Assembly (NCBI RefSeq): GCF_036242395.1
Contig: NZ_CP108458.1
Coordinates: forward strand, 992,001-1,056,000
Direction of reading: 5' to 3'
DNA length: 64,000 nucleotides
Origin: Kitasatospora sp. NBC_01266
GTDB lineage: Bacteria; Actinomycetota; Actinomycetes; Streptomycetales; Streptomycetaceae
A program made the translations under genes and the position numbers. Within the stretch, counting starts at the first letter, position 1, and each line of letters opens with the position of its first letter. This document shows positions 8,375 through 63,697 of the stretch, in pieces. The notes under the pieces are model-generated. The model searched no databases. It saw only the letters and a program-made list of their open reading frames with translations, and was not told the origin of the DNA.

Positions 8375-8388
8375 GCCGAGCAACCCGG

Positions 8389-9876: not shown

Positions 9877-9881
9877 CCTAC

Positions 9882-11909: not shown

Positions 11910-12006
11910 GCCCCGTCCCCCTGTCAGGCCCGGCATGACAGTTCGTCAGCCGACAGCGACAGTGTGCCAGAGCCCTCGCGATGGTCCAAGATGGACGGTG
12001 CAAGCC

Positions 12007-12066: not shown

Positions 12067-12070
12067 GGCG

Positions 12071-13150: not shown

Positions 13151-13179
13151 GGTGTTCCTCTCGGTAGGTGGTGAAGGGG

Positions 13180-14598: not shown

Positions 14599-14627
14599 GG
14601 GTGGTCCTCTCCTCGCCGCCAGGACGT

Positions 14628-14648
14628 TTAACTACCGTTGCTAGTTAA
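14628..14648. promoter_or_regulatory. Inverted repeat operator upstream of the aldehyde dehydrogenase
   Basis: TTAACTA at 14628-14634 and TAGTTAA at 14642-14648 are exact reverse complements around a 7-base spacer. This is an unusually AT-rich island in the GC-rich DNA, 30 bases upstream of the ATG at 14598. Shape and length fit a TetR- or MarR-type dimer site overlapping a promoter. No such regulator gene is adjacent. The rest of the gap up to 14755 shows nothing else. Confidence 0.5.
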
Positions 14649-14755
14649 CGCCGTGTGCCCTGCACCCCGCAAGCATGCCGCAGCGCCGCACCGCACCCCC
14701 CGGGCGGGTGCGGCGCGGCGCTGCGAGGTCCGATTCCTACTGCGGGGTCCGGTCC

Positions 14756-15523: not shown

Positions 15524-15527
15524 CTGA

Positions 15528-20552: not shown

Positions 20553-20702
20553 GCGCACCCCTTGGGGGTTCGGTGGGGGATCCGAAACGTGCGCCCACAG
20601 CACTGTGGCCGTCAATGGCCCGGAACTAGACCATTGGCTTACCGCGCATGCTTCCGTCTCGCCCCGCACCACGTCAAGAGGGGCATGCCCGGCGATCGCG
20701 GC

Positions 20703-32520: not shown

Positions 32521-33603
32521 TCAGGAGACCGCGCGCAGGCGGCGCTTCTTGGCCGGTTCGGACCGCAAGTCCCGCAGCGCCTCCAGCAGTTGGTCACGCG
32601 TCATCGAGGAGCGTCCTGTGACGCCCTGCTCGGTCGCCAACCGGTACAGCTCGGCCTTGCTCAGCTCACCGAGGTCGCCGGGCTGTTCGGCCGGCGTTTC
32701 GGCCGGCTCGGCAGCCGACTTCCCGGCCGACTTCCCAGCCGACTTCCCAGCCGACTTCTTCGCCGCCTTCGCGGTCGGCGTCCCGTCGGCTTCGCCGTCC
32801 TCGGCGCCCTCGCCGTCCTCGCCGCCGGCCCGCTGGAGGCTGCGTTCCAGGACGGCCATCAGGTCCACCACGTTCGTCGACTCCGGCACGGGCGCGGCGC
32901 TGACCACCTCCTGGCCGTTCAGCTTCGCCTCGACCAGTTCGCGCACCTGCTCGGTGTAGGTGTCGCGGTACTCCGAGGGGTCCCACTCGGAGCTGAGCAT
33001 CTCGATCAGCTGGCGGGCCGCCGCCAGTTCCCGCTCCGAGGGCTCGGCGGGCTGCTCCGGCAGGTTGTCGATCTCCTGGTGCGGGTCCCGCACCTCCTGC
33101 GCGTAGTGCATGGTCTGCAGCACCAGCACCTCGCCCTCCACCCGGACCGCCGCCAGGTACTGCTTGCCGCGCATCACGAAGGTGGCCAGCCCGGCGCGGT
33201 TGGTCTCCGCCAGGGCCCGGTGCAGCAGACCGTAGACGCGGGCGTACTCCTTGCCGCGCGGACCGAGGTAGTACGTCTTGTCGAAGTAGATCGGGTCGAC
33301 CTCGGTCAGGTCCACGAAACCGCTGATCTCGATCGACTTGGAGCGGCCGGGCGAGATCTGCTCCAGTTCGGCCGGCTCCAGCACCACGTACTCGCCCTCG
33401 GCCAGCTCGAAGCCCTTGACCACGTCGCGGTACTCGACCTCCTCGCCGGTGCGCTCGTTGACCCGCTGGTTGCGCACCCGGTCGGAGGTGCCGCGCTGGA
33501 GCTGGCGGAAGTGCACGGAATGGTCCTCGGTCGCCGAGTACAGGCCCACCGGTACGGTGACCAGCCCGAAACTCAGCGTGCCGGTCCAGATGGGTCTGGC
33601 CAT
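32521..33603 (-). CDS. ku: Ku protein (non-homologous end joining)
   Basis: A 360-residue bacterial Ku. The ring-forming core (about 1-255) starts MARPIWTGTLSFGLVTVPV and contains IDLTEV-type and YYLGPRGKEYARVYGLL segments. A Lys/Ala tail follows with four copies of KSAG/KSAA (about residues 284-299), then a SAP-like motif (LGELSKAELYRLATEQGV...DQLLEALR) and the basic end KKRRLRAVS. It binds DNA ends and recruits LigD enzymes. The tail and SAP-like part should add DNA affinity. The ATG at 33603 has GGAGG 8 bases upstream; the longer frame (33612) was rejected. It is convergent with the polymerase gene. Confidence 0.96.
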   Translation of the reverse strand: MARPIWTGTLSFGLVTVPVGLYSATEDHSVHFRQLQRGTSDRVRNQRVNERTGEEVEYRDVVKGFELAEGEYVVLEPAELEQISPGRSKSIEISGFVDLTEVDPIYFDKTYYLGPRGKEYARVYGLLHRALAETNRAGLATFVMRGKQYLAAVRVEGEVLVLQTMHYAQEVRDPHQEIDNLPEQPAEPSERELAAARQLIEMLSSEWDPSEYRDTYTEQVRELVEAKLNGQEVVSAAPVPESTNVVDLMAVLERSLQRAGGEDGEGAEDGEADGTPTAKAAKKSAGKSAGKSAGKSAAEPAETPAEQPGDLGELSKAELYRLATEQGVTGRSSMTRDQLLEALRDLRSEPAKKRRLRAVS

Positions 33604-33792
33604 CGCCACCACCTCCTCGCCGAGCTCTCAAGTATTTCACCCTGCCGTACGGCCTGCCGCGCGGTGCGAGACCGGGTACCTCCCCGCCGAGGCCGACCTG
33701 CTCCGCTTCCGGCGGCGCTTTCGCCCCGGCCACCGGCCGACCGAACCGGGCGGCGGCACGGTGGGCTCCCCCGCAGGTGTAGAAAAGGGGCC

Positions 33793-34545
33793 GTGACCAG
33801 AGACCAGCACGCCCTGCGGGCCCTGCGGGCTGTCGACGCGCTCGGGTACTTCTTCGCCCTCCAGGTCGGCGCGACCCCCGACGCACCGCCACCGAACGGC
33901 CTGCGCCCGCTGCGCGAGCTGTACGCGACCGGGCGGGACGGCAGCGGCCCGGACGCACCGCTCGCCGCGCGGATCCGGCTGGTCGGCGAGCGGCTGCGCA
34001 CCCCCGAGGCACGGGTGGCCGCCTCGAGCGTGCAGTTCGGGATCGCGGCACGGCTGCTCTCGGTGGCGCTCGGCGCGGTAGCGTTCGGCGGCGTGCTGCC
34101 CGACCTCGATCCGGACCGCGCCTACGCGCGGCAGCCGGCGGACGGCCCGCTCGACCTCTGGGTGCCGTACCCGCAGGGGGCACCGGCGCGGCCCGTGACG
34201 GCCGAGCAGGTGCACCGCGAGGTGCTGCTGGCCAACCTCGCGCCACTCGGTACGGCCGTGCGGGCGATCACCCCGGTCGCGGAGCGGCTGCTCTGGGGCA
34301 ACGCCGCCTCCGCGCTGGTCGGCACGCTGCGGGTGCTGCGCGGGCAGCCCGGCGCGGCGCACGCCACCGTCGCGGCCGTCGCCCGGCAGCTGCTGGCGCG
34401 CGAACCGCTGGCGGGCAGCAGCACCTGGTCACCCGCGTTCCGGCGGACCACCTGCTGCCTCTACTACCGCGTGCCGGGCGGCGGACTGTGCGGCGACTGC
34501 GTCTTCACCACGGCTCCCGGCGCCGCGACCGGAGCGCGGCGATGA
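33793..34545 (+). CDS. FhuF-like ferric reductase ([2Fe-2S]) 1
   Basis: A 250-residue helical protein ending in the FhuF-type cluster motif: TTCCLYYRVPGGGLCGDC, with C-C and C-x-x-C supplying four ligands. FhuF proteins take iron out of ferric siderophores in the cytoplasm. The middle (SSVQFGIAARLLSVALGAVAFG) resembles the IucA/FhuF helical region. The GTG at 33793 follows AAAAGGGG. Its stop overlaps the start of the next gene (ATGA), so the two are coupled. No iron box is seen directly upstream. Confidence 0.88.
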   Translation: MTRDQHALRALRAVDALGYFFALQVGATPDAPPPNGLRPLRELYATGRDGSGPDAPLAARIRLVGERLRTPEARVAASSVQFGIAARLLSVALGAVAFGGVLPDLDPDRAYARQPADGPLDLWVPYPQGAPARPVTAEQVHREVLLANLAPLGTAVRAITPVAERLLWGNAASALVGTLRVLRGQPGAAHATVAAVARQLLAREPLAGSSTWSPAFRRTTCCLYYRVPGGGLCGDCVFTTAPGAATGARR

Positions 34546-35324
34546 CGCCCCGCACCGTCGCCGACGACCAGGGCCGGCCCGTGCGCGTCGGCTCCGTCAC
34601 CCGGGTGGTCTCGCTGGTCCCGTCCCTCACCGAGGCGGTCGCGGTGAGCGCACCGGGCCTGCTGGTGGGCGCGACCGACTGGCGCAGCCACCCGGCCGAG
34701 TTGGCGGTGACCCGGGTCAAGGGCACCAAGAACCCGGACCTCGCCGCGATCCGCGCCCTCGCGCCCGACCTGGTGATCGCCAACGAGGAGGAGAACCGGC
34801 TGCCCGACCTGGACGCCCTGCGCGCGGCCGGAATCGCGGTGTACGTGACGGAGATCCGCACCCTGGACGCCGCATTCGACTCGCTCGAACGCCTGTTGAC
34901 CGAGGCCTGCGGGCTCTCCCGGCCCGCGTGGCTGCCCCGGGCCCGGGCCGCCTGGCAGCAGCTGCCGACGCCGACTCGGCCGCGCAGTGCGGTCGTTCCG
35001 ATCTGGCGGCGCCCGTGGATGGTGCTCGGCCGGGACACCTTCGCCGGTGACCTGCTGCGCCGCCTGGGCGTCCGCCAGCTCCACGCGGACCACGCCGACC
35101 GTTACCCGGCCATTCCGCTGCCCGAACTGCTCGCCAGTGAGCCGGAGTTGGTTGTGCTGCCGGACGAGCCGTACCGGTTCGGCCCGACGGACGGACCCGA
35201 GGCCTTTCCCGGGATCCCGGTGGCACTGCTGAGCGGTCGCCATCTCACCTGGTACGGGCCGTCCTTGGTCGAGGCGCCGGAGTTGCTCGCCGCCCAACTG
35301 CGGACCGCCCTGCCGGGCAGCTGA
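34542..35324 (+). CDS. Helical-backbone metal receptor (BtuF-like), no signal peptide
   Basis: A 260-residue class III (BtuF/FhuD-type) substrate-binding fold. It begins VVSLVPSLTEAVAVSAPGLLVGATDW, contains VKGTKNPDLAAIRALAPDLVIANEEENR and ends with LLSGRHLTWYGPSLVEAP. There is no signal peptide or lipobox at either start codon, so it should stay in the cytoplasm, unlike ordinary receptors. It is translated together with the FhuF-like protein, so it may hold a siderophore or corrinoid inside the cell for reduction. GGAG lies 7 bases before the ATG at 34542. Ligand unknown. Confidence 0.85.
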   Translation: MTPRTVADDQGRPVRVGSVTRVVSLVPSLTEAVAVSAPGLLVGATDWRSHPAELAVTRVKGTKNPDLAAIRALAPDLVIANEEENRLPDLDALRAAGIAVYVTEIRTLDAAFDSLERLLTEACGLSRPAWLPRARAAWQQLPTPTRPRSAVVPIWRRPWMVLGRDTFAGDLLRRLGVRQLHADHADRYPAIPLPELLASEPELVVLPDEPYRFGPTDGPEAFPGIPVALLSGRHLTWYGPSLVEAPELLAAQLRTALPGS

Positions 35325-35407: not shown

Positions 35408-36178
35408 CTACTCCTCCAGGCGCCGCACCCGCTCCGCGTCGCAGGTGCGCGGGCAGGTCAGGCAGGTGTCCTCCGGGCGCACCGCGTAGTAGAGGCAGCA
35501 GCCGAGCCGGGTCCGGGTCAGGTGCTCGCGGTCGGCCGTGCCCGCCAGGCGGCGGAACTGCGCACCGCCGGGCAGCGGCCCGGTCCCACCGGGCAGCAGT
35601 CGCTCGGCCCGCGCCACCGCGTCCTCCTCGCGGCCGAGCATCCGGCCCAGGTACCACAGGCCCGAGACCAGATCGTCCGTCACCATCCCCCACAGCGACC
35701 GGGATCCGCGCTTGGCGACCGGTCGAAAGGCGGCCAGCACCGGCGCCGCGTGCGCGGCGACCACGGCGCGCAGCCGTTCGTCCCCTGACGTCGCACGATC
35801 TGACGCGTCGTCAAGCTCGTTGCCGGGCCGGAACGCCAGCTCCCCGCTCTGCGGGGCGAGCCACAGCCGATCGTGCCCCAACTCCGGCACCCGCCCCGTC
35901 AGGTACCAGGGTCCACTGGCGAGCAGGCAGACCGACCAGAGGTAGTGGTGCAGCAGCCGCGCCGCCGCGACGTGCGGCGGCACCGCACAGCCGTGCTCCG
36001 CCCGGATCCGCCCCGCCTCCCCCGCGATCAGCTCCGGCATCCGGTCCGCGAAGTCCGTCGCCGGGACCCAGTCCCGGCCGGGTGCCGGTTCGCCCGCCCC
36101 CAGCATCCGGACAGTCAGCGCCGGGCAGCACTCGGCCACCCGGCGGCAGGCCTCCAGCAGCGGCGGCAGCTCGGACAT
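35408..36178 (-). CDS. FhuF-like ferric reductase ([2Fe-2S]) 2
   Basis: A 256-residue IucA-C-terminal/FhuF-like protein. The helical middle has VAAARLLHHYLWSVCLLASGPWYL and the C-terminus has LGCCLYYAVRPEDTCLTC, the CC...C-x-x-C cluster motif, followed by RTCDAERVRRL. It probably releases iron from the siderophore handled by the divergent uptake and synthesis operon. An iron box lies 35 bases upstream, so it should be iron-repressed. The ATG at 36178 follows GGGGAG; a GTG just before it is less likely. Confidence 0.9.
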   Translation of the reverse strand: MSELPPLLEACRRVAECCPALTVRMLGAGEPAPGRDWVPATDFADRMPELIAGEAGRIRAEHGCAVPPHVAAARLLHHYLWSVCLLASGPWYLTGRVPELGHDRLWLAPQSGELAFRPGNELDDASDRATSGDERLRAVVAAHAAPVLAAFRPVAKRGSRSLWGMVTDDLVSGLWYLGRMLGREEDAVARAERLLPGGTGPLPGGAQFRRLAGTADREHLTRTRLGCCLYYAVRPEDTCLTCPRTCDAERVRRLEE

Positions 36179-36212
36179 CACGGAACTCCCCGTCAGATCG
36201 ATAGCATACGAC

Positions 36213-36231
36213 TAAGGCAAGCCTCACCTTA
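36213..36231 (-). promoter_or_regulatory. Iron box (DmdR/IdeR) for fhuF-like gene 2
   Basis: TAAGGCAAGCCTCACCTTA is a 19-base imperfect dyad close to the actinobacterial iron box TTAGGTTAGGCTCACCTAA. It lies upstream of the ATG at 36178 on the minus strand. An iron-loaded DmdR1/IdeR repressor should bind it. Confidence 0.85.
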
Positions 36232-36271: not shown

Positions 36272-36302
36272 TTGACTTTCTTAGGGTTGCCTAACCTAAT
36301 AT
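36272..36302 (+). promoter_or_regulatory. Promoter with iron box (DmdR/IdeR) for the siderophore operon
   Basis: TTGACT at 36272-36277 can serve as a -35 element and TAATAT at 36297-36302 as a -10, 19 bases apart. Between and over them lies TTAGGGTTGCCTAACCTAA (36281-36299), a near-perfect iron box. Binding of the iron repressor would cover the -10. The first gene starts 8 bases later (GTG 36310), so the mRNA may be nearly leaderless. Confidence 0.88.
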
Positions 36303-36309
36303 CCATCCC

Positions 36310-37347
36310 GTGCTCAGAATCGACCTGCCGGCCTCAACTGCCCCGGCACCACGGACTTTGGCAACCCGACAGGCCCTCCTGCTCGGCCTCGGTCTCGGCG
36401 TCCTGCTCCTCTGCCTGGCGCTGAGCCTGGCGCTGGGCTCCCGCTCCGTCCCGCTGCCGACCGTCCTCCACGCGCTGTTCGGCGGCGGCCGGCACGGCGA
36501 CCCGGACATCGAGGTGGTGACGGGTCTTCGGGTGCCGCGCACGGTGCTCGGCCTGGTGGTCGGCGCGGCCCTCGGCGCGGCCGGGGCGATCGCCCAGGGC
36601 GCCACCCGCAACCCGCTGGCCTCGCCGACCACCCTGGGCGTCAACGCCGGGGCGAGCTTCGCCGTGGTCACCGCGATCTACGCGCTGCGGCTGACCCGGC
36701 CGGTCGAGTACGTCTGGTTCGCGGTCGCCGGGGCGGCGCTGGCGGCCTGTGCCGCGCACGCGATGGCCCGGCGCAGCGGCGATCTCGACCCGACCCGGCT
36801 CGCGCTGGGCGGCACGGTGCTGGCCACCGTGCTCACCTCCTGGACCTCCGCGCTGATGCTCGCCAGCCGCCGCACGCTGGACGAGGCGCGGTTCTGGCTG
36901 GTCGGCTCGCTGGACGGGCGCGGGCTCGAAGTCCTCGCCCCCGTACTGCCGTTGCTGCTGCTCGGGCTGGTCCTGGCGATCGCCGTCGCCCCCGCGCTCA
37001 ACGCGCTGGCACTGGGCGACGAGGCCGCGCAGGCGCTGGGCGTACCGGTGGCGCGGATCCGGGCCACCGCCGGGCTGGCCGTGGTGCTGCTGGCCGCCGG
37101 CGCGGTGGCGGTGGCCGGTCCGATCGCGTTCGTCGGCCTGGCCGCACCCCGTCTGTGCCGGCTGCTGCTCGGCAACGACCACCGGGTGCTGCTGCCCGGC
37201 TGCCTGATCGGTGGTCCGATCCTGCTGCTGGCCGCCGATGTGCTGGGCCGGCTGGTGATCCGGCCCTCCGAGCTGGAGGTCGGCATCGTCACCGCGTTCC
37301 TCGGCGCCCCGCTGCTCGCCGTGCTCGCCCGGAAGGCCGCCCGATGA
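36310..37347 (+). CDS. FecCD family ferric-siderophore ABC permease 1
   Basis: A 345-residue BtuC/FecCD permease with about nine to ten membrane helices. Family segments include TGLRVPRTVLGLVVGAALGAAGA, the GATRNPLASPTTLGVNAGASF loop that meets the ATPase, and GPIAFVGLAAPRLCRLLLG. It forms a heterodimer channel with the next gene product. It is the first gene of the iron-box promoter, with a GTG start. Its stop overlaps the next start (ATGA). Confidence 0.95.
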   Translation: MLRIDLPASTAPAPRTLATRQALLLGLGLGVLLLCLALSLALGSRSVPLPTVLHALFGGGRHGDPDIEVVTGLRVPRTVLGLVVGAALGAAGAIAQGATRNPLASPTTLGVNAGASFAVVTAIYALRLTRPVEYVWFAVAGAALAACAAHAMARRSGDLDPTRLALGGTVLATVLTSWTSALMLASRRTLDEARFWLVGSLDGRGLEVLAPVLPLLLLGLVLAIAVAPALNALALGDEAAQALGVPVARIRATAGLAVVLLAAGAVAVAGPIAFVGLAAPRLCRLLLGNDHRVLLPGCLIGGPILLLAADVLGRLVIRPSELEVGIVTAFLGAPLLAVLARKAAR

Positions 37348-38381
37348 CCTTCCAGCTCCGCTCGGCCACCGCTCCCGCGCTGCGCCGCCGCCGCACCCTG
37401 CTGCTCTGCCTGCTCGCGCTCGCCGCGCTGCTCGTGCTCACGGCGACCGGCCTGAGCACCGGCGAGGTGTCGATCCCGCCGCTCACCGCACTGCGCGCGC
37501 TGGTCGGGCTCGGTGACGGCGGCGATGTCCTGGTGGTGCAGCAGTTCCGGGCGCCCCGGGTGCTCGCCGCACTGATCGCGGGCGCCGGTCTGGCCGTCTC
37601 GGGGGCACTGCTGCAGCGACTCTTCCGCAACCCGCTGGCCTCACCGGACGTGGTCGGGGTGACCGGTGGCGCGTCCTTCGGTGCGGTGCTGCTGCTCTCC
37701 CTGGGCGCGTCCCAACTGCTGGTGCCGCTGGCCGCGTTGGGCGGCGGCCTGGTCGCCGCCGCGCTGCTCGGGGCGTTCGCCTGGCGGTCCCGGGCGGCAG
37801 TGGGCCGACTGGTCCTGGTCGGGCTCGCCGTGCAGTCCGCACTGGCCGCGGCGGTGAACCTGATGATCGTCCGCTTCCCGGCCGAACTCGCCTCCACCGC
37901 ACTGCAGTGGACCACCGGCTCGCTCTACGGGCGGACCTGGACCGAGGTCTGGGCCGGCGGCGGCGCGATCGCGGTGGCGCTGACCGCCGTATTGCTGGCG
38001 GACCGCCGGGTGGCGGTGCTGGACCTGGGCGACGACTCGGCGGGCGGGCTCGGCCTGCGCCCGGACCGGGACCGGCTCCGGCTGCTGCTGCTCGCCATCA
38101 CGCTGGCCTCGCTGGCCGCCGCGCTGACCGGCCCGGTCGGCTTCGTGGCGCTGGCGGTGCCGCACCTGGTGCGCTACCTGGCCGGACCGCCCACCCCCGC
38201 GACCCTGGTGCTCTGCGGACTGCTCGGCGGCACCCTGCTGCTGGCCGCCGACCTGACCGTGCTGCACCTGCTGCCCGTGGCGGGGTTGCCGGTCGGCGCG
38301 ATGACCGCCACTCTCGGCGCCCCCTGGCTGCTGGTCCTGATGATCCGTCAGGGCCGTGTGACGAACCGGAGTACCCGATGA
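37344..38381 (+). CDS. FecCD family ferric-siderophore ABC permease 2
   Basis: A 345-residue second FecCD permease with multiple helices. It shows FRAPRVLAALIAGAGLAVSGA, LFRNPLASPDVVGVTGGASF and GPVGFVALAVPHLVRYL. Pairing with the first permease makes the usual FecC/FecD type channel for a siderophore. It overlaps both neighbours by 4 bases, so all three transporter parts are made together. Confidence 0.95.
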   Translation: MTFQLRSATAPALRRRRTLLLCLLALAALLVLTATGLSTGEVSIPPLTALRALVGLGDGGDVLVVQQFRAPRVLAALIAGAGLAVSGALLQRLFRNPLASPDVVGVTGGASFGAVLLLSLGASQLLVPLAALGGGLVAAALLGAFAWRSRAAVGRLVLVGLAVQSALAAAVNLMIVRFPAELASTALQWTTGSLYGRTWTEVWAGGGAIAVALTAVLLADRRVAVLDLGDDSAGGLGLRPDRDRLRLLLLAITLASLAAALTGPVGFVALAVPHLVRYLAGPPTPATLVLCGLLGGTLLLAADLTVLHLLPVAGLPVGAMTATLGAPWLLVLMIRQGRVTNRSTR

Positions 38382-39208
38382 CCCTGCCCGCGAGCCCGAC
38401 CGTCGCGGCGACGGAGCGCCCCAACCGGCTGGCCGCGCACGGCCTGCGACTGCGCTACGCCGACCGGCTGATCGTGGACGGCCTGGACCTGGAGCTGCCC
38501 GGCGGCGCGGTGACCGCCGTGGTCGGCCCGAACGCCTGCGGCAAGTCGACCCTGCTGCGCGGCCTGGCCCGCCTCCTCGACCCGGCGGCCGGCAGCGTCA
38601 CGCTGGACGGCACCGACCTGCACCGGATGCCCGCCCGGACGCTGGCCAAGCGGCTCGGCCTGCTGCCGCAGCAGCCGGTCACGCCCGAGGCGATCACCGT
38701 CGAGGCGCTGGTCCGGCTCGGCCGCTACCCGCACCAGCGGCTGCTCAGCCCCTGGTCGGCCGCCGACCAGGCGGCGGTGGAAGCCGCGCTGGAGCGCACC
38801 GGCACCGCCGAGCTGCGCGACCGGCCGGTCGACCAGCTCTCCGGCGGGCAGCGCCAACGCGCCTGGATCGCACTGACCTTGGCGCAGGACACCGAACTGC
38901 TGCTGCTGGACGAGCCGACCACCTTCCTGGACCTGCGCCACCAGCTCGACGTGCTCGACCTGGTCGCCCGGCTGCACCGGGACCTCGGCCGCACCGTGGT
39001 CATGGTGCTGCACGACCTGGGCCAGGCCGCCCGCTACGCCGACCACCTGGTCGTGCTGCACGAGGGCCGGCTGGCCGCCGCGGGCCCGCCGGCCGAAGTG
39101 CTGGACGCGGGGCTGGTCGAGCGGGTCTTCCAGGTGCCCTGCCGGGTGATCCCGGACCCCGAGACCGGCACACCGCTGGTCATCCCGCGCGCCCGCGGCC
39201 GACTCTGA
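38378..39208 (+). CDS. Ferric-siderophore ABC transporter ATPase
   Basis: A 276-residue FecE-type ATPase. Walker A is GPNACGKST, the Q-loop is GLLPQQPVTP, the signature is LSGGQRQRAWIAL, Walker B is LLLLDEPTTFLDL and the H-loop is VLHDLGQAARYAD. It powers import through the two FecCD permeases. The ATG overlaps the permease stop. The C-terminus ends in a family-specific Arg-rich tail. Confidence 0.96.
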   Translation: MTLPASPTVAATERPNRLAAHGLRLRYADRLIVDGLDLELPGGAVTAVVGPNACGKSTLLRGLARLLDPAAGSVTLDGTDLHRMPARTLAKRLGLLPQQPVTPEAITVEALVRLGRYPHQRLLSPWSAADQAAVEAALERTGTAELRDRPVDQLSGGQRQRAWIALTLAQDTELLLLDEPTTFLDLRHQLDVLDLVARLHRDLGRTVVMVLHDLGQAARYADHLVVLHEGRLAAAGPPAEVLDAGLVERVFQVPCRVIPDPETGTPLVIPRARGRL

Positions 39209-39246
39209 CCGACCGTCAACTCCCCTTCCACGAAAGAAGCACCACC

Positions 39247-40245
39247 ATGTCCCAGCTCCGCCGTCTGCCCGTCGCCGTGCTCGCCGTCGCGCTCACCACC
39301 ACCCTGCTGGCCGGTTGCGGCAGCAGCGCGACCGACAGCAGCAGCAAGCCCGCCGCCGCGAGCAGCGGCAGCGACGCGACCGCGGCCTTCCCGATCACCG
39401 TCAAGCACGCCATGGGCAGCACCGAGATCAAGAGCGCGCCCAAGCGGGTCGTGGTGCTGGACAGCGGCGAGTTGGACGATGTCACCCTGCTCGGCATCAC
39501 GCCGGTGGGCGCGGTCTCCCCGCACCTGAAGACCGAGGGCGGGTTCCCGACCTACCTCAAGGGCGAGATCCAGGGCACCAAGGACGTCGGCCCGATGGCC
39601 GAGCCCAACCTGGAGTTGATCGCCTCGCTCAAGCCGGACCTGATCCTCTCCTCCAAGGTCCGCCACGAGAAGATCTACGACAAGCTCAGCGCGATAGCCC
39701 CCACCGTCTTCGCCGAGACCACCGGCGTGACCTGGAAGGAGAACATCGCGCTCTACGCCCAGGCGCTCGGCAAGCAGGCCCAGGCCACGCAGGCGCTGGC
39801 CGACTACCAGACCCGGGCGGCGAAGGTCGGCGCCGAGATCAAGGAGAAGAACGGCGGCACCATGCCGACCGCTTCGGTGGTGCGCTTCATCGCCGGCCCG
39901 ACCCGGCTTTACCAGAAGGCCTCGTTCAGCGGCACGGTGCTGAAGGACGTCGGCCTGAACCGCCCGGCCTCGCAGGACGTCGACGCCTCGATGATGGACG
40001 TCAGCCCCGAGCAGCTCGACAAGGCCGACGCCGACCTGGTCTTCGTGACCACCGCCGACGACCCGAGCAAGACCCAGCAGAGCCAGGTGGAGGCCACCCC
40101 GCTCTGGCAGAACCTCAAGGCGGTGAAGGCGAACAAGGTCTTCAACGTGCCGGACGAGACCTGGATGTCCGGCATCGGGGTGCAGGCGGCCGACCAGATG
40201 CTGAACGACATCGCGAAGGCGACCGGCGTGACGCCGGTCAACTAG
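39247..40245 (+). CDS. Siderophore-binding lipoprotein (FecB/FhuD type)
   Basis: A 332-residue class III substrate-binding lipoprotein. The signal ends in the lipobox LLAGC (Cys at about residue 24), then a Ser/Ala linker. The ligand-binding fold starts PKRVVVLDSGELDDVTLLGI, followed by PNLELIASLKPDLILSSKVR and a long connecting helix (about 165-200). It captures ferric siderophore outside the cell and hands it to the FecCD permease. GAAAGAAG lies upstream of the ATG. It precedes the synthesis genes by only 64 bases, so uptake and synthesis probably share one mRNA. Confidence 0.95.
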   Translation: MSQLRRLPVAVLAVALTTTLLAGCGSSATDSSSKPAAASSGSDATAAFPITVKHAMGSTEIKSAPKRVVVLDSGELDDVTLLGITPVGAVSPHLKTEGGFPTYLKGEIQGTKDVGPMAEPNLELIASLKPDLILSSKVRHEKIYDKLSAIAPTVFAETTGVTWKENIALYAQALGKQAQATQALADYQTRAAKVGAEIKEKNGGTMPTASVVRFIAGPTRLYQKASFSGTVLKDVGLNRPASQDVDASMMDVSPEQLDKADADLVFVTTADDPSKTQQSQVEATPLWQNLKAVKANKVFNVPDETWMSGIGVQAADQMLNDIAKATGVTPVN

Positions 40246-40309
40246 ACACCGGTCAACCAGCCAGCGCCCGAAGGCCGGTACACCCCATCACCACGAAACA
40301 GGGACTCCG

Positions 40310-41518
40310 TTGCGGCTCTACCTGCTCGCCCACAACCCCACCGACTCCGTCACCCAGGGCTTCCTGCCCGCCGCGGCCCGGCTCGGCCTGCCCGTCACCG
40401 TGCTGACCGACCAGGCCGAGGCGCACCACCGGGCCTACGCGCACCGCGCCCACCTGCCGGCCGACCTGCTGGTGCTGCCCTGCGAGGTGGCCGACTTCCG
40501 CGAGGTGGTCGGTCTGGTCTCCGGCCATGAGCCGCCCGCGGCCGTGTTCAGCAACAGCGACCACCTGCAGACCCAGGCCGCCCTGGCCGCCGCCTACTTC
40601 GGCCTGCCCGCCAAGGACTGGCGAGCCACCCTGCGCGCCAAGAACAAGGCCGAGCTGCGCCGGCACCTGGCCGCCACCGGTCTCGACACGGTCCGCAGCG
40701 CCGAGTTGACGGCGGGTCAAGATCCTGCTGACGTCGAGCTTCCGCCCTTCCCCTGCGTACTCAAGCCCCGCGAAGGTGTGGCCAGCGAGGATGTGGTGCT
40801 GGTCGCGGACGCCGCCGAACTCGCCGCCCGCTGCGCGGAGATCCGGCGCCGCCGACCCGAGGCCACCCTGCTGGTCGAGGAGTTCCTCAGCGGCGAACTG
40901 CACACCCTGGAGACGCTGGGCGACGGGCAGCGGCGCGAGGTGCTCGGCGGCTTCCGGACCCGGCTCTCCCCGCCGCCGCACTTCATCGAGGAGGTGCTGG
41001 AGTTCGTCCCCGCCCACCCGGGACCGGTGGTCGACCAGGTCCTCGCTCAGCTCGACGCACTGGGCGTGGGTCTGGGCGCCTGCCACACCGAGTTCGTGGT
41101 GCAGCCGGACGGCCGGGCCCGGATCATCGAGGTCAACTACCGGGCGATCGGCGACCAGTGCGACCTGATGCTGGCGCAGCTGCTGGGGATCCCGTACTTC
41201 GAGCACGTACTGCGGGTCCACCTGGGCCACCCGCTGCCCGCCGACCTCGGCGCCCGCACCGACCTGCGCGGGCGCAACGAGGTGGTCTGCGCCGACCGGG
41301 CCGGCACCCTGACCGCCGCACCGGGGCCGCAGGACGCCGGGGCCGAGGGCGTGCGGCTCAGCTACCGCCCGCTGCGCGCCCTCGGCGAACGGCACGAGCA
41401 CTACCGGACCAACCGCGACTACCTGGGCGTGATCTGGGCGATCGGCCCCGACCAGCGGGCCGTGGACCGCGCGGTGGCCGACTTCATCACCGCCAACCGC
41501 TGGGAGATCACCCCGTGA
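40310..41518 (+). CDS. ATP-grasp ligase, siderophore biosynthesis (PvsA-like)
   Basis: A 402-residue ATP-grasp protein. The pre-ATP-grasp part (about 1-110) starts MRLYLLAHNPTDSV; the ATP-grasp fold has PFPCVLKPREGVASEDVVLV, a TLLVEEFLSGELHTLE hinge and the metal site in GRARIIEVNYRAIGDQ. It ligates a carboxylate to an amine through an acyl phosphate. It is the first of five genes in the order ATP-grasp, NIS, MFS, NIS, decarboxylase, exactly as pvsA-E. In that system PvsA adds an amino acid unit. It starts with TTG at 40310, and its stop overlaps the next gene (GTGA). Confidence 0.9.
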   Translation: MRLYLLAHNPTDSVTQGFLPAAARLGLPVTVLTDQAEAHHRAYAHRAHLPADLLVLPCEVADFREVVGLVSGHEPPAAVFSNSDHLQTQAALAAAYFGLPAKDWRATLRAKNKAELRRHLAATGLDTVRSAELTAGQDPADVELPPFPCVLKPREGVASEDVVLVADAAELAARCAEIRRRRPEATLLVEEFLSGELHTLETLGDGQRREVLGGFRTRLSPPPHFIEEVLEFVPAHPGPVVDQVLAQLDALGVGLGACHTEFVVQPDGRARIIEVNYRAIGDQCDLMLAQLLGIPYFEHVLRVHLGHPLPADLGARTDLRGRNEVVCADRAGTLTAAPGPQDAGAEGVRLSYRPLRALGERHEHYRTNRDYLGVIWAIGPDQRAVDRAVADFITANRWEITP

Positions 41519-43218
41519 GCACCGCCGATCAGCTGACCCTGCGGGTGCTCAGCGCCCTGCTGCGCGAGGACGTGCTCGGGCTGCGGACCGGCTCCCACCG
41601 CGAACGGCGCCCGGACGGCGACTGGCTGGTCCTCGAGCACCTCGCGCTGCCGGTCCGCCCGGACGGCTTCCAGTGCGAACTCGCCGCGCGCGAGCCCCTG
41701 CTGGAGGTCGACGGGCACCCGGTGCGCGAGCTGGACGAGATCCTCGCCGAGCTGCGCGCGCGGGCCGCACAGCCGGACCGCGAGGGCTTCACCGCCTTCG
41801 CCGAGGAGTGCCGCCAGACGCTGGCCACCATGCGGCTGCACGAGGCCGAGCAACCGGCCGTCCTCGCCGCGCTGGCACGGGACTTCGGGGCCGACCCGGC
41901 CGACTGGACCGGCCCGCGGGCGAGCCTGGCCTTCGACACCCTGGCGGCCTACCTGGACCACCCGGTCTACCCGACCGCACGCGGCCGGGCCGGCCTCACC
42001 GCCGCCGACCTGCACCGGTACGCGCCCGAGTGCCACCCGGCGTTCCTGCTCCGCTGGCTGCTGCTGCCCATCGAGGCGCTGACCGTGCACGGCGGGGCCC
42101 CGCTGCCCGCCTGGTGGCCGACCCCGGCGGCGCTCGGGCACCCCGAACTGACTGACAGTCACCGTACTGTGCCCGTGCACCCGCTGTCGGTCGGCGCGCC
42201 GCTCACCGAAGCACTGCGCGCCACCGGCCTGGCGGACCGCGCCCTGCTCGCCGAGCACCCGTACCTGGAGGTGACGCCGACCCTCTCGATGCGCACCGTC
42301 GCGGTCGCCACCGACCCGCGCCACCACGTCAAACTGCCGCTCGCCACCGCGACCCTGGGCCTGCGCAACCGGCGCACCATCAAGCCGGCCACCCTGCTGG
42401 ACGGCGCGGCCGGGCAGCTGCTGCTCACCGAAGTCCGGTCCCGGGAAGCACGGTTCGCCGACACCGTGCTCTTCGCCGACGAGCAGAGCTACGCGCACGC
42501 CGGACACGAGCTGCTCGCCGTGCTGCTGCGGCGGCTGCCTGCGGCCATCGACGCCCCGGACGCGGTCATCGTGCCGCTGGCCGCGCTGGCGGCCACCGCG
42601 CCGGACGGGCGCCTGGTGCTGGACGCACTGGCCGAGCGCTTCTACGGCGGCGACCCCGTCGCCCTCTACGACGCGCTGCTCACCCTGCTGCTGGACTGGC
42701 AGTGCACGCTCTTCGGCCACGGCGTCGCGCTGGAGTCGCACCAGCAGAACACCTCGCTGATCCTCGACCGCAGCGCCGGCGCGACCCGGCTGCGGCTGCT
42801 GCTGAAGGACAACGACGGCCCACGGATCAACCGCGCCCGCGCCGAACTGACGATCAGTCAGCAGACCCTGGAAGGCTTCGACGACCCTCGCACCTTCAGC
42901 GCCGACGACCGCGCGCTGACCGACCTGTTCACCACCATCACCGGCCACCTCTGCACCGCCTCGCTCGCCTTCGCCCTCGCCGAGCACGAACGGGCGCCGC
43001 TGTCCGAGACCTTGGGGCTGCTGCGCAAGCGGCTCGCCGAGGCGCTGGACCGGCTCGGCCCAGCGGGCCTGCCGCTGCGCGCGGCGCTGCTGGACGCCGA
43101 CCGGCTGCCGGTCAAGGCGATGGTCAGCGCCGGCACCCTGCTCAGCAAGGAGCGCTCGGGCGCGGCGGACATCAACAAGCACTACACCACTGGACCGAAC
43201 TACCTGGCGGGCGCGTGA
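41515..43218 (+). CDS. IucA/IucC family NIS siderophore synthetase 1 (PvsB-like)
   Basis: A 567-residue NRPS-independent siderophore synthetase. The ATP-binding front has DHPVYPTARGRAG, a variant of the usual G-H-P-x-x-P-x-x-K-x-R-x-G in which the lysine is Ala/Arg. VPVHPLSVGAPL, TPTLSMRTVAVATD and HHVKLPLATATLGLRNRR follow, and the FhuF-like C-terminal half has ALESHQQNTSLIL and LLLKDNDGPRIN. Such enzymes adenylate citrate or another carboxylate and condense it with an amine or alcohol. In the pvs order this copy would add the last unit (2-oxoglutarate in vibrioferrin). It overlaps both neighbours by 4 bases. Confidence 0.94.
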   Translation: MSTADQLTLRVLSALLREDVLGLRTGSHRERRPDGDWLVLEHLALPVRPDGFQCELAAREPLLEVDGHPVRELDEILAELRARAAQPDREGFTAFAEECRQTLATMRLHEAEQPAVLAALARDFGADPADWTGPRASLAFDTLAAYLDHPVYPTARGRAGLTAADLHRYAPECHPAFLLRWLLLPIEALTVHGGAPLPAWWPTPAALGHPELTDSHRTVPVHPLSVGAPLTEALRATGLADRALLAEHPYLEVTPTLSMRTVAVATDPRHHVKLPLATATLGLRNRRTIKPATLLDGAAGQLLLTEVRSREARFADTVLFADEQSYAHAGHELLAVLLRRLPAAIDAPDAVIVPLAALAATAPDGRLVLDALAERFYGGDPVALYDALLTLLLDWQCTLFGHGVALESHQQNTSLILDRSAGATRLRLLLKDNDGPRINRARAELTISQQTLEGFDDPRTFSADDRALTDLFTTITGHLCTASLAFALAEHERAPLSETLGLLRKRLAEALDRLGPAGLPLRAALLDADRLPVKAMVSAGTLLSKERSGAADINKHYTTGPNYLAGA

Positions 43219-44408
43219 AGACGGGGACGCTGCTGCGGACCCGCAGCCAGGCCTCCGAAGGCGGCCTGGCCCGACGCCAGGTGCACGCGGTGGCCGGCTG
43301 CTACTTCGTGGCCTCCTTCGCCGCACTCGGCCTGCCGCCCTACCTGACCTCGATCCTGCCGGGCCTGGGCGACCGGCACGGCCACTGGGCCGGCCTGCTC
43401 TACATCGTGCCGACCGTGTTCAGCGCGCTGGGCGCCCCGGTCTGGGGGCGGCTGGCCGACCGGTTCGGCCGCAAGCGCCTGCTGCTGCGGGCCCAACTGG
43501 GCCTGAGCGTCTCGTTCCTGCTGGCCGGACTGGCCGACAGCCTGCCCGCCTTCACGCTCGCCCTGGTGCTGCAGGGCTTCCTCGGCGGCACCTTCGCCGC
43601 CACCAACGGCTACCTCGCCGCCGCTCTGGAGGGGCCCGGGCTGTCCAGAGCGCTGACCCTGATGCAGGGCAGCGCGCGAGCCGCGCTGGTGGCCGCGCCG
43701 ATCCTGGTGGGAGCGCTCTCCCCCTGGCTCTCGCCGCACCGGCAGTACCTGGTGATGGCCCTGCTGCCGCTGGCGGCGGCGGCGCTGCTGGCCCGGCTGC
43801 CCGAACCCCGCCGGGCCACCGCGCCAGGTGCCGCGGCGGCCTCCGCCGCGAGCGCCGCTCCCACCGGCCTCCGCGCGCTCTACGTCTACGAGTTCGCGTT
43901 CGTCTTCGCCACCATCGTCTCCTTCCCCTACCTGATCGCGCTGGTCGACCAGCGAATACCGGGGATCGACGCGACCGTGGCGGGCGCGCTCTTCGCCCTG
44001 CCGCACCTGTGCTACTTGCTGCTCGCCTCCCGGGTGCACACCGCCTTCCTGCACCGGCCCAGGGCCGGGCTCGCGCTCGGCTACCTGCTGGTCGCGGCCG
44101 GCCTGGCCGGACACGGGCCCGCCCACTCGGTGCTGACCTTCACACTGGCCCGGCTGGTGCTCGGCGGCGGGCTGACCCTCGGCCTGGTCTGCCTGTCGAT
44201 CCTGGCCGCCGACGCCGCCCGGGGTCGCGCGCCGGGCCGGATGTTCGGCACACTGGAACTGATCTCCAAGGGTGGCGCGGTCGCCGCCGGCGTCATCGCC
44301 ATGCTGGTCAACTCGGCCTTCGGCGCCGACTCGCCGGTGCTGATCGGCACCGCCGCCGCGCTGGCCGCCGCCGCCTTCCTCCTCCCCCGCCTGCTCTGGA
44401 GTCGCTGA
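43215..44408 (+). CDS. MFS siderophore exporter (PvsC-like)
   Basis: A 397-residue major facilitator protein with about twelve helices in two halves. The loop 2-3 motif is GRLADRFGRKRLLL and the C-terminal half has ARLVLGGGLTLGLVCLSIL. Its place between the two synthetases and its 4-base overlap with the first of them point to export of the finished siderophore, as shown for PvsC in Vibrio. The start is GTG at 43215. The stop and the next start share one base (TGATG). Confidence 0.92.
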   Translation: MKTGTLLRTRSQASEGGLARRQVHAVAGCYFVASFAALGLPPYLTSILPGLGDRHGHWAGLLYIVPTVFSALGAPVWGRLADRFGRKRLLLRAQLGLSVSFLLAGLADSLPAFTLALVLQGFLGGTFAATNGYLAAALEGPGLSRALTLMQGSARAALVAAPILVGALSPWLSPHRQYLVMALLPLAAAALLARLPEPRRATAPGAAAASAASAAPTGLRALYVYEFAFVFATIVSFPYLIALVDQRIPGIDATVAGALFALPHLCYLLLASRVHTAFLHRPRAGLALGYLLVAAGLAGHGPAHSVLTFTLARLVLGGGLTLGLVCLSILAADAARGRAPGRMFGTLELISKGGAVAAGVIAMLVNSAFGADSPVLIGTAAALAAAAFLLPRLLWSR

Positions 44409-46168
44409 TGTCGATCACCCTCTCCCCCGCCCTGACCACGCTGCCCACCGCCGAGCAGGTGGTGGCGCACACCCTGGTCAACTGCCTGCTGCGCGAGGTC
44501 TCCGGGCCGGAGCACCAGACCGCGGTGAGCGCCGGGCGACTACTCCTGCGACTGCCACGGTGCGGGGCACTGCTCCGGGTCGCGCTGCGCCGCACCTCGC
44601 TGATCGGCGCCCACCGCTTCGCCGGCCCCGTGCAGCGCAAGGATGCTGACGGGTGGTCAGATCTGGACTGGCGGGAGCTGGCCGAGCTGGTCCAGGCCGA
44701 ACTCACGCTGCGCACCGGGGTGCGCAACGAGGAGTTCCTCGACCAGCTGACCTCCAGCCACCAGGGCGTGGCGGCGGCCCTGACCGGCCGCCCGGCGCCG
44801 GACGGCGACCGGTACCGGGAGTCCGAGCAGGCCCTGCTGTTCGGCCACCGCTTCCACCCCGCGCCCAAGTCCCGCTCGGCGCGCGGCGCCGACGCCACCA
44901 CCTGGGCGGCGTACGCGCCCGAGGCCCGCGCGAGCTTCCCGCTGCGCTACCTCGCCGTGCGGGACAACCTGCTCGCCGAGCAGTCCGTCGACCCGGCCGC
45001 GACGGCCCTGCTCGACGGGCTCCTCGACGGACCGCACGAGGCAGTGCGCGAGGTCCCGGCCGGCTACCGCCTGCTGCCCACCCACCCGTGGCAGTACCAG
45101 CTGCTCGGCGAGCACCCGCTGCTCCGGGCCGCGCTCGCGAACGGCGACGTGATCGATCTCGGCACCGGCGGGCCCGAGTTCGCCGCCACCGCCTCGGTGC
45201 GCACGCTGCACGGCGCCGGCGCCTTCCTCAAGTTCAGCCTGAACGTGCGGATCACCAACTGCCTGCGCAAGAACGCCGCCTACGAGCTGACCGGCGCCGT
45301 CGAGCTGACCCGGCTGCTGGACGGCGCGCTCGGCGACCTGGCCGAACGCTTCCCGGACGCCGCGATGCTGCGCGAACCGGCCTTCCGCACCCTCGCGCTG
45401 CCCGGCCCCGACGGCACCCCCGACACCGAACTCTTCGAGGGCTTCGGCCTGATCGTCCGCGAGGACCTCGACGCCCGGCTGCACCCCGGCCTCACCCCGC
45501 TGCTGGCGGCCGCGGTGGCCGACGAGTACCCGACCAGCTCGGCCCAACTCGGCCGGCTGCTCGGCGAGCCGGCCCCGGCGGCGGCCGAGCTGCTCGACTG
45601 GTGGACCCGCTACCTGCGGCTGCTGCTGCCACCGGTGCTGGCCGCCTACTTCGACCACGGCGTGGTGCTGGAGCCGCACCTGCAGAACGTGCTCATCGCG
45701 GTGGACGACGCGGGCTACCCGGCCCAGGTGCTCTTCCGCGACCTGGAGGGCACCAAGCTGCTGCCGGAGCGCAACGCCGCCCTGCTGGCCGAACTGCCGC
45801 CGCAGGTGGCCGGACCGATGAGCTACGACGAGCAGCGCGGTTGGGACCGGGTGGTGTACTGCCTGCTGGTCAACCACGTCGCCGAGCTGCTGGCGGTGAT
45901 CGCCGACCAGGACCCCTCGCTGGAGCCGCAGTTGTGGGAGCGGGTGCGCGGCGTGCTGGCGCGGTACGCCGAACTGCACGGCTGCCCGCCCCGGCTGCGA
46001 GCCCTGCTGGCCGGGGTGCCGCTGCCGGCCAAGGCCAACCTGCTGACCCGCTGGGAGCGCAAGGCGGACCGCGAGGCCGGGTACGTCCGGCTGCCCTCGC
46101 CGCTGGCCGCCGCAGTGCTGAACCAGGCCGCCCAGGCCCCCACCGAGTCGGCAGGAGAAGTCCGTTGA
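44408..46168 (+). CDS. IucA/IucC family NIS siderophore synthetase 2 (PvsD-like)
   Basis: A 586-residue NIS synthetase with the full motif set: GHRFHPAPKSRSA (ATP phosphate binding), LLPTHPWQYQ, ATASVRTLHGAGAFLKFSLN, VRITNCLRKN, VLEPHLQNVLI and LFRDLEGTKLL. This looks like a type A (citrate-activating) enzyme such as AcsD/PvsD, which joins citrate to the hydroxyl of serine. The product would be the substrate for the next enzyme. It overlaps the exporter by one base and the decarboxylase by four. Confidence 0.95.
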   Translation: MSITLSPALTTLPTAEQVVAHTLVNCLLREVSGPEHQTAVSAGRLLLRLPRCGALLRVALRRTSLIGAHRFAGPVQRKDADGWSDLDWRELAELVQAELTLRTGVRNEEFLDQLTSSHQGVAAALTGRPAPDGDRYRESEQALLFGHRFHPAPKSRSARGADATTWAAYAPEARASFPLRYLAVRDNLLAEQSVDPAATALLDGLLDGPHEAVREVPAGYRLLPTHPWQYQLLGEHPLLRAALANGDVIDLGTGGPEFAATASVRTLHGAGAFLKFSLNVRITNCLRKNAAYELTGAVELTRLLDGALGDLAERFPDAAMLREPAFRTLALPGPDGTPDTELFEGFGLIVREDLDARLHPGLTPLLAAAVADEYPTSSAQLGRLLGEPAPAAAELLDWWTRYLRLLLPPVLAAYFDHGVVLEPHLQNVLIAVDDAGYPAQVLFRDLEGTKLLPERNAALLAELPPQVAGPMSYDEQRGWDRVVYCLLVNHVAELLAVIADQDPSLEPQLWERVRGVLARYAELHGCPPRLRALLAGVPLPAKANLLTRWERKADREAGYVRLPSPLAAAVLNQAAQAPTESAGEVR

Positions 46169-47376
46169 GCACCATCGCGCTGCCGCCCGCCGTCCACGCC
46201 GAGGCGGCCGAGCTGCCCACCGAGGCGCTGCCCGCCTACCTCTACGACCTGCCCGCGCTGCGCGCCCACGCGGCGGCGATCCGGGCCGCGCTGCCCGAGC
46301 GGGTGGAGCTGTACTACGCCGCCAAGGCCAATCCCGACCCCGCGCTGCTGACCGCGATGCGCGACCAGGTGGACGGCTACGAGGTGTCCTCCGGTGGCGA
46401 GTTGGCCCATGTGCGGGCCGCCGTTCCGGACGCCCGGCTGGCCTTCGGCGGACCGGGCAAGACGCCGGCCGAACTGAGCGCCGCGCTGGCGGCCGGCGTG
46501 CACCGCTGGCACGTGGAGAGCGTGGCCGAACTCCACCAACTCGCCGCGCTGGCCACCGGACCGGTCGACCTGCTGCTGCGGGTCAACCTGCCGCTGCGCG
46601 CGGGCGCGCTGGACGGCGTACCGCTCGCCATGGGCGGCCGGCCCACCCCGTTCGGTCTGGACCCCGAACACCTGGACCACTGCCTGCGGTTGCTGGCCGA
46701 GCCCCGGTTCGCCCGGCACCTGCGGCTGCGCGGCATCCACGCGCACCTGGCCAGCGGCCTGGACGCGGTCGGCCAACTCGCGGTCGCCGAGCAGCTGGTG
46801 GACTGGGCGGCGGGCCTGCCGGTGGCGATCGAGGAGGTCAACATCGGCGGCGGCATGGCCGTGGACTACGCCGATCCGCACGCGCGCTTCGACTGGTCCG
46901 GCTACGGCGCGGGGCTGGCGAGCCTGCTGCGCCGCCATCCCGGACTGCGGCTGCGGATCGAGCCCGGCCGGGCGATCACCGCCTACTGCGGCTGGTACGC
47001 CACCGAGGTGCTGGAGGTCAAGCGCAGCCACGGCGAGGAGTTCGCGGTGCTCCGCGGCGGCACCCACCACCTGCGCACGCCCGCCGCGCGCGGGCACGAC
47101 CAGCCGTTCGCCGTGCTGCCCGTGGAGCACTGGCCGCACCCCTGGCCCCGCCCGACGGCCGAGAGCGGCCAGGTCACGCTTGCCGGACAACTCTGCACCC
47201 CCAAGGACGTCCTGGCCCGCCGGGCGAGCGTGCCGGCGCTGCGGACCGGGGACCGGGTGGTGTTCGGGCTGGCCGGAGCGTACGCCTGGAACATCTCGCA
47301 CCACGCCTTCCTGATGCACCCTCAGCCGGGCTTCCACCTGCTGGGTGAGCAACCCGTCGAGGGCAACGACCGGTAG
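46165..47376 (+). CDS. PLP-dependent type III decarboxylase (PvsE-like)
   Basis: A 403-residue fold-type III decarboxylase related to diaminopimelate/ornithine decarboxylases. The PLP lysine is K54 in YYAAKANPDP; VDGYEVSSGGELAHV, HAHLASGLDAV, VNIGGGMAVDY and LRIEPGRAITAYCG follow, and LAGQLCTPKDVL gives the C-terminal active-site cysteine. In vibrioferrin and achromobactin-type routes such an enzyme decarboxylates the citryl-serine unit to citryl-ethanolamine. It is the last gene of the operon. It starts with TTG inside the previous stop (TTGA), with AGGAG 7 bases upstream. Confidence 0.93.
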   Translation: MSTIALPPAVHAEAAELPTEALPAYLYDLPALRAHAAAIRAALPERVELYYAAKANPDPALLTAMRDQVDGYEVSSGGELAHVRAAVPDARLAFGGPGKTPAELSAALAAGVHRWHVESVAELHQLAALATGPVDLLLRVNLPLRAGALDGVPLAMGGRPTPFGLDPEHLDHCLRLLAEPRFARHLRLRGIHAHLASGLDAVGQLAVAEQLVDWAAGLPVAIEEVNIGGGMAVDYADPHARFDWSGYGAGLASLLRRHPGLRLRIEPGRAITAYCGWYATEVLEVKRSHGEEFAVLRGGTHHLRTPAARGHDQPFAVLPVEHWPHPWPRPTAESGQVTLAGQLCTPKDVLARRASVPALRTGDRVVFGLAGAYAWNISHHAFLMHPQPGFHLLGEQPVEGNDR

Positions 47377-62627: not shown

Positions 62628-63638
62628 TCACTCCTCCTTGCGGGCCCGGCTCGGCTGCACCCGTGGCGGCTCCCCCGGCATCTTCGGGTGGTCCGGCGGG
62701 TAGGGCAGTTCGCCCAGCCCCTCGTCGCGCTCCTGACGGTCCGCCAGCTCGAGCACCGCCTCCAGGCCGAAGGCCTGCCCCTCCATCCCGGCGAACGGAT
62801 CACCCAGCTCGGCCAGCCGGGCCGGCACGGTGCGCAGCGTGAAGTCGCCGGGCGCGGCCCCGTCCAGCTCCGGCCAGCTCAGCGGGGTGGAGACGGTGGC
62901 CTCGGGGCGGGCCCGCAGCGAGTAGGCGGAGGCGATGGTGCGGTCGCGGGCCATCTGGTTGTAGTCCACGAAGACCTTCACGCCGCGCTCCTCCTTCCAC
63001 CAGTGCGTGGTGACCCGCTCGGGCAACAGCCGCTCCAGCTCCCGGCCGAGCGCGATGGCGCAGCGCCGCACCTCGGCGAAGTGCCACTCGGCGCGGATCG
63101 GCACGTAGACGTGCAGACCGCGCCCGCCGGAGGTCTTGGGCCAGCCGGTCAGCCCGTACCGGGCGAGCACCTCGCGCAGCTGGTGGGCGGCGCGCACCGC
63201 GTCGGCGAAGTCGGTGCCCGGCTGCGGGTCGAGGTCCAGCCGCAGCTCGTCGGGCCGGTCGGTGTCGTGGCGGCGCACCGGCCAGGGGTGGAAGGTGAGG
63301 CAGCCCAGGTTCGCCGCCCAGAGCACGGCGGCCGGCTCGCCGGGGCAGATCTCGTCGGCGAACCGCCCGCTGGGAAAGGCGATCCGGGCGGTGGGCAGCC
63401 AGTCGGGCGTGTTCTTCGGGGCCCGCTTCTGGTAGAAGAACTCACCTTCGACCCCGTCCGGGAACCGCTGCAGCGTGGTCGGCCGGTCACGCAGCCCGCG
63501 CAGCACCGCCTCGGCGACCGCCTGGTAGTACTGGGCAACGTCCAGCTTGGTGTAGCCGGGGCCGGGGTAGTACACCTTGCCGGGGTTGGACAGTCTGACG
63601 ACCCGCGCCCCGACCTGCAGCTCAACGGCTTCACCCAT
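62628..63638 (-). CDS. LigD-type polymerase/primase (end-joining polymerase) 2
   Basis: A 336-residue stand-alone LigD polymerase domain. The metal site is D135 and D137 (LRLDLDPQPG), with GGRGLHVYVPI and VKVFVDYNQMARDRTIASAY. VRLSNPGKVYYPGPGYTKLD opens the fold. Compared with copy 1 (31553-32449) it keeps a longer, charged C-terminal tail after residue 290. It is divergent to a DNA ligase gene, a layout that joins polymerase and ligase activities of LigD in two proteins. The ATG at 63638 has GGAAGG close by; a frame to 63662 is possible. Confidence 0.93.
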   Translation of the reverse strand: MGEAVELQVGARVVRLSNPGKVYYPGPGYTKLDVAQYYQAVAEAVLRGLRDRPTTLQRFPDGVEGEFFYQKRAPKNTPDWLPTARIAFPSGRFADEICPGEPAAVLWAANLGCLTFHPWPVRRHDTDRPDELRLDLDPQPGTDFADAVRAAHQLREVLARYGLTGWPKTSGGRGLHVYVPIRAEWHFAEVRRCAIALGRELERLLPERVTTHWWKEERGVKVFVDYNQMARDRTIASAYSLRARPEATVSTPLSWPELDGAAPGDFTLRTVPARLAELGDPFAGMEGQAFGLEAVLELADRQERDEGLGELPYPPDHPKMPGEPPRVQPSRARKEE

Positions 63639-63697
63639 GCCTTCCACGCTAGAGGCACGCACTGCGGGACGCTCGTGGGTGACGCACCATCAGAGCC

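Follow-up and report, generated by a model that had tools for sequence, protein, structure and literature searches.

A predicted vibrioferrin-type carboxylate siderophore system with its own importer in Kitasatospora sp. NBC_01266

A stretch of 64,000 nucleotides from the soil actinomycete Kitasatospora sp. NBC_01266 (contig NZ_CP108458.1, positions 992,001 to 1,056,000; hereafter the window) carries nine genes at window positions 36310-47376, in which a four-gene importer is followed by five genes, A to E, that resemble the vibrioferrin genes pvsABCDE. From their content, order and relatedness it is concluded that the locus probably encodes a self-contained system, repressed by iron, for iron uptake through a carboxylate siderophore of the vibrioferrin type. 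The families of all nine genes were confirmed with Pfam and NCBIfam.

The genes A to E are all located on the forward strand. They encode, in this order, a PvsA-like ATP-grasp ligase with an L-amino acid ligase fold (A, 40310-41518, TTG start), a PvsB-like, SbnC-related IucA/IucC synthetase of type B (B, 41515-43218), a PvsC-like exporter of the major facilitator superfamily (MFS) (C, 43215-44408; Pfam MFS_1, 3.8e-23), a PvsD/AcsD-like IucA/IucC synthetase of type A, predicted to activate citrate (D, 44408-46168), and a pyridoxal phosphate (PLP)-dependent decarboxylase resembling PvsE, AcsE and SbnH (E, 46165-47376, TTG start; Pfam Orn_Arg_deC_N, 2.8e-28). Overlaps of four bases were found between A and B (41515-41518), B and C (43215-43218) and D and E (46165-46168), and C and D share a single base (44408). 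An initial reading of the letters and open reading frames (the sequence-only reading) had proposed five overlapping genes with the order and families of pvsABCDE; the family assignments and junctions bear this out, and the match to Vibrio plasmid pvs operons is gene for gene. The same arrangement A-B-C-D-E recurs on plasmids from Vibrio fortis, Vibrio sp. THAF190c, Cupriavidus necator, Pantoea soli and Rhodococcus oxybenzonivorans. Identity to the Vibrio pvs proteins ranges from 33 to 42%, with 35-36% for A, 34% for B (V. fortis), 38% for C and 42% for E, which is equally close to Sodalis AcsE.

To place the two synthetases, 71 IucA/IucC proteins were compared in a maximum-likelihood tree, in which the aerobactin class is represented by rhizobactin and haloarchaeal homologs. 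B was found in a clade of 27 rows together with PvsB-type proteins of Vibrio, Pantoea and Cupriavidus (support 100/100), apart from AcsA, AcsC, DfoC and rhizobactin-type proteins. This clade divides into an actinobacterial group (100/99) and its proteobacterial sister group (99/92). D belongs to a clade of PvsD and AcsD proteins (99/97), in which almost all rows from actinobacteria come together on a single branch (100/99); AcsD nests with the proteobacterial PvsD-type rows (97/88) and actinobacterial D is sister to both. By this tree PvsD and AcsD types are not separable, and 'PvsD' is not a unique label for D. The expected grouping with PvsB and PvsD was thus obtained in full for B, and for D only as far as the joint PvsD/AcsD group; the grouping with desferrioxamine or aerobactin enzymes that had been named as the opposite outcome did not arise. 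Neither of the two synthetases clusters with DfoC, and on the strength of the tree, enzymes of desferrioxamine or aerobactin type were rejected for this locus. A recent transfer from a Gram-negative donor was considered and rejected as a simple story, because the actinobacterial B and D proteins form separate, well-supported branches beside the proteobacterial ones; judged from the tree, those of actinobacteria constitute an old lineage of their own.

In B, the motif DHPVYPTAR is found where AcsD-type enzymes have GHPxHPxPK. This changed ATP-loop motif had been noticed before and taken as a hint of a different final unit. The change is real, but the form DHPxxPTxR is common to all eight PvsB-type proteins aligned, V. 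fortis included. In this alignment it is a signature of the PvsB class and gives no ground to expect another final unit, and the idea that a changed ATP loop means a changed product was rejected since Vibrio PvsB has the same motif. The nearest solved structure to B is 7cbb, presumably SbnC, and the best NCBIfam match is likewise the SbnC model. For D the nearest solved structure is AcsD (7.9e-71), and D keeps H170, S279, R281, K293, R305 and H444 (AcsD numbering), which we take to be the catalytic residues of AcsD. In two genus members the gene for synthetase B is broken into two parts that lie in different frames (G008:C1:7525907-7527546 and G022:C1:6537976-6539627), which reflects either gene decay or an assembly error.

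The AlphaFold model of A has a pLDDT of 94.6, and its best match in the Protein Data Bank is 3vot, an L-amino acid ligase (383 residues aligned at an rmsd of 2.8, Z 36.4; next entry Z 31.4). The predicted fold of A is thus closest to characterized L-amino acid ligases. The nearest solved structure to E is 6knh (2.9e-79), which is assumed to be SbnH, the decarboxylase of a citryl conjugate.

Directly upstream of A, and also on the forward strand, two FecCD-type siderophore permeases (36310-37347 and 37344-38381; Pfam FecCD, 4.2e-86 and 5.4e-74), a FecE-like ATPase (38378-39208) and a siderophore-binding receptor lipoprotein with the lipobox LLAGC (39247-40245; Pfam Peripla_BP_2, 1.2e-33) were identified. 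The two permease genes overlap by four bases (37344-37347), as do the second permease gene and the ATPase gene (38378-38381); gaps of 38 and 64 nt separate the ATPase from the lipoprotein gene and the lipoprotein gene from A. The best NCBIfam match of the ATPase is the Fe(3+)-dicitrate ATPase FecE (8e-91, below the model's cut-off) and that of the lipoprotein is a Fe(3+)-dicitrate binding protein; among curated models both are nearest to ferric-citrate importers. C has the rhizoferrin exporter FslB as its best NCBIfam match. The neighboring genes that were inspected include no TonB-dependent receptor, and the lipoprotein is present instead, in agreement with the suggestion that a full FecCD-type importer lies upstream with a Gram-positive receptor lipoprotein in place of the TonB receptor.

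To this system a divergent gene is added that the sequence-only reading had not included. It encodes a FhuF-family [2Fe-2S] protein (35408-36181, reverse strand; Pfam FhuF_C, 1.7e-5, over the cut-off), best read as a ferric-siderophore reductase that would free the iron, and a homolog adjoins the cluster in 38 of 79 named actinobacterial relatives. Two further genes adjoin the system on the forward strand and are present in K. humi too: a second FhuF_C [2Fe-2S] protein (33700-34545) and a TroA-like helical backbone metal receptor (34542-35324).

When the 64-kb window was searched with a 19-bp IdeR/DmdR-type pattern, only two matches were obtained, both between the operon and the divergent FhuF-family gene; 100 shuffled sequences gave 0.00 on average. 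The box TAAGGCAAGCCTCACCTTA (36213-36231) is located near the FhuF-family gene and the box TTAGGGTTGCCTAACCTAA (36281-36299) 10 nt upstream of the start of the first permease; each has two mismatches to TWAGGTWAGSCTWACCTWA. An iron box with at most three mismatches was found just upstream of the operon in 73 of the 79 relatives, and most of those without one are loci cut by contig ends. Control stretches from the same 79 loci contained a box in only 39 of ∼2000 cases, some of which may overlap true boxes. Between importer and A, none of the importer-bearing loci showed an iron box (best 8-10 mismatches). Because the upstream box is conserved and no box lies in between, it is well supported that importer and biosynthesis genes share one iron-box promoter, as had been predicted from the window alone.

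From the anatomy of the locus a concrete four-step pathway is proposed. AcsD couples citrate with L-serine, type-B synthetases use 2-oxoglutarate or citrate derivatives, and L-amino acid ligases are of varied specificity. D would accordingly couple citrate and L-serine, and E would decarboxylate the citryl conjugate to O-citryl-ethanolamine. A, as an L-amino acid ligase, would then put an amino acid (alanine in vibrioferrin) onto the free amine, and B would attach 2-oxoglutarate, whose end can close to a lactam. The finished siderophore would be exported by C; once loaded with iron it would be bound by the lipoprotein and brought back in through the two permeases with the ATPase, the divergent FhuF-family protein would reduce the iron for release, and a repressor of the IdeR/DmdR type would work at both iron boxes. 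The step order D, E, A, B, based on the relatedness of the enzymes and the fold of A, suggests vibrioferrin or an analog, and the product may be either of these.

Gene content and order, enzyme relatedness, the active-site residues of D, the predicted fold of A and the conserved iron boxes are what was observed; all reaction steps, substrate identities, the final structure and regulation in the cell are inferred from them. Several points weigh against this reading. The assignment of the importer as cognate is by its position only. D is equally close to AcsD, whose pathway otherwise leads to a different molecule, and B and D are just 33-34% identical to the Vibrio proteins, so that their substrates may have drifted. 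The assignment of steps to PvsA, PvsB and PvsD also differs from published proposals, in which PvsA forms the ester and PvsB and PvsD the amides (PMC5577590; PMC6836290); one of these two reviews calls its own assignment untested.

The product could also be a close analog whose framework is still made up of citrate, a two-carbon linker, an amino acid and 2-oxoglutarate, but in which A adds another amino acid or the linker differs, for example diaminoethane from diaminopropionate. This comes close to an even chance and refines the proposal of a vibrioferrin-type siderophore without excluding it. The actinobacterial enzymes form their own branch, with A, B and D at 33-36% identity to Vibrio, and L-amino acid ligases are generally known to vary in what they accept; many residues of D and E, however, are invariant across the actinobacterial and Vibrio-type groups, and no genes for making diaminopropionate were found at the locus. 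That the product is instead of the achromobactin or staphyloferrin B type is very improbable. D does group with both AcsD and PvsD, and AcsE and PvsE are equally near to E, but those pathways have three synthetases and lack an ATP-grasp enzyme, whereas two synthetases and an ATP-grasp enzyme are present here, and B belongs to the PvsB clade, which does not include AcsA and AcsC.

The importer could also serve another ligand, such as a foreign siderophore or ferric citrate, and have no more than the promoter in common with the biosynthesis genes. The ferric-citrate models closest to receptor and ATPase would agree with this, as would the fact that most Streptomyces relatives carry the biosynthetic genes without the importer. 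It is nevertheless an unlikely explanation, since the complete unit of importer and A-B-C-D-E was found in 25 of the 79 named loci, where importer and exporter occur jointly and no iron box separates them, and since a homologous receptor (47% identical) adjoins the Rhodococcus operon.

The locus was also compared with known systems. The Vibrio systems pvsABCDE/pvuBCDE share the same five families in order, the PvsB clade and the MFS exporter, and the copy of Vibrio sp. THAF190c adjoins TonB receptors and a Fe(3+)-dicitrate-type ATP-binding cassette importer, as in the classical vibrioferrin system. The Kitasatospora locus differs from these in its lipoprotein replacing the TonB receptor, its upstream, co-directional importer and its IdeR/DmdR-type boxes. 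The operon on the Rhodococcus oxybenzonivorans plasmid pRB29 resembles it in the A-B-C-D-E order and in the presence of a receptor and a FecCD importer, but there the receptor is downstream, the permeases and ATPase are on the opposite strand and a gene of the aldolase/citrate-lyase family is added. Such an extra gene (SbnG-like citrate supply?) was seen in the pvs-type operons of Cupriavidus, Rhodococcus and Pantoea, and the Kitasatospora operon is without it. The achromobactin cluster of Sodalis pSG1 shares an AcsD-like D, an AcsE-like E, an MFS exporter and a FecCD-type importer, but has three synthetases and no ATP-grasp enzyme, and its AcsA and AcsC fall outside the B clade. Xanthoferrin of Xanthomonas is reported to be an alpha-hydroxycarboxylate siderophore related to vibrioferrin; this likeness concerns the product.

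The system is not unusual for an actinomycete: it is common there and 'vibrioferrin-like' genes have already been described. B was found in 53 of 70 Kitasatospora-group genomes; a sample of 249 genomes from the family contained it in 111, and a phylum-wide sample of 396 genomes in 3, all three from the window's own family. Named carriers include Kitasatospora, Streptomyces, Nocardia, Kribbella, Catenulispora, Actinomadura, Amycolatopsis, Rhodococcus and Arthrobacter; together with these carriers in other families, the phylum sample shows a patchy spread and gives no reliable frequency. In 41 of the 79 named loci, some on cut contigs, importer and MFS gene are missing from the positions seen here. 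The full unit is carried, for example, by K. aureofaciens. The avs cluster of S. avermitilis (SAVERM7320-7323) has been published as a 'vibrioferrin-like polyhydroxycarboxylate siderophore' with an uncharacterized product; compared by description only, it is likewise actinobacterial, with three synthetase components and a diaminopimelate-type decarboxylase, but it is listed with four genes and without MFS or importer, and so resembles the MFS-less Streptomyces loci (PMC9394381). For Streptomyces tunisialbus the nearest antiSMASH cluster was vibrioferrin at 18% (PMC7385001). In the open-licence literature searched, no isolated product of an actinomycete vibrioferrin-type cluster was found, although one could exist. 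The gene set is already predicted and common in actinomycetes, and the product of the Kitasatospora cluster is not described in that literature. 'Vibrioferrin' genes are thus no speciality of marine Gram-negative bacteria, and a siderophore gene set without a described product there is conserved in three quarters of the Kitasatospora-group genomes searched and in many other actinomycetes.

The genome contains four IucA/IucC genes, B and D and a rhizobactin/aerobactin-like pair at ∼5.736 Mb, and none of the four is DesD. The second pair (stretch 5728000-5747999, ∼8225-13785 within it) consists of an IucA-like and an IucC-like synthetase, 39% and 42% identical to two synthetases of the rhizobactin region of Sinorhizobium pSymA, accompanied by an acetyltransferase-like domain and an N-monooxygenase and adjoining hflX and a DinG-like helicase. 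IucA/IucC orthologs with N-monooxygenase and acetyltransferase, of the aerobactin/rhizobactin type, were not found at the pvs-type locus. The reported absence of hydroxamate genes therefore applies to this locus but not to the whole genome, which carries this hydroxamate-citrate locus and lacks DesD.

DesD-type genes, assigned by score class with one member checked, were found in 12 of the 70 Kitasatospora-group genomes, versus 53 for B. It is not claimed that the pvs-type operon has replaced desferrioxamine in the genus: DesD is present in 6 of the 53 genomes that carry B and in 6 of the 17 that lack it (Fisher p = 0.058, uncorrected for kinship). As a tentative extension, the actinobacterial branch might make an undescribed carboxylate siderophore on the vibrioferrin plan with a different amino acid or linker, which could be a common citrate-type siderophore of Kitasatospora, where DesD is present in a minority of species.

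On two Streptomyces plasmids (L111, ∼7190-10600; L012, 7430-10599) a D-type synthetase stands next not to B but to another, divergent IucA/IucC protein. An E-type decarboxylase is present on L111 as well, and neither A nor B was found at these two loci, which possibly represent another citrate siderophore type. Elsewhere in the window, genes for a Ku protein (32521-33612, reverse strand) and a LigD-type primase-polymerase (62628-63662, reverse strand), both of non-homologous end joining, flank the operon ∼30 kb apart. Two aldehyde dehydrogenases, a C26 gamma-glutamyl hydrolase-type protein and an amino acid permease are encoded at 13180-20672 on the reverse strand, a group that looks like catabolism of gamma-glutamylated amines.

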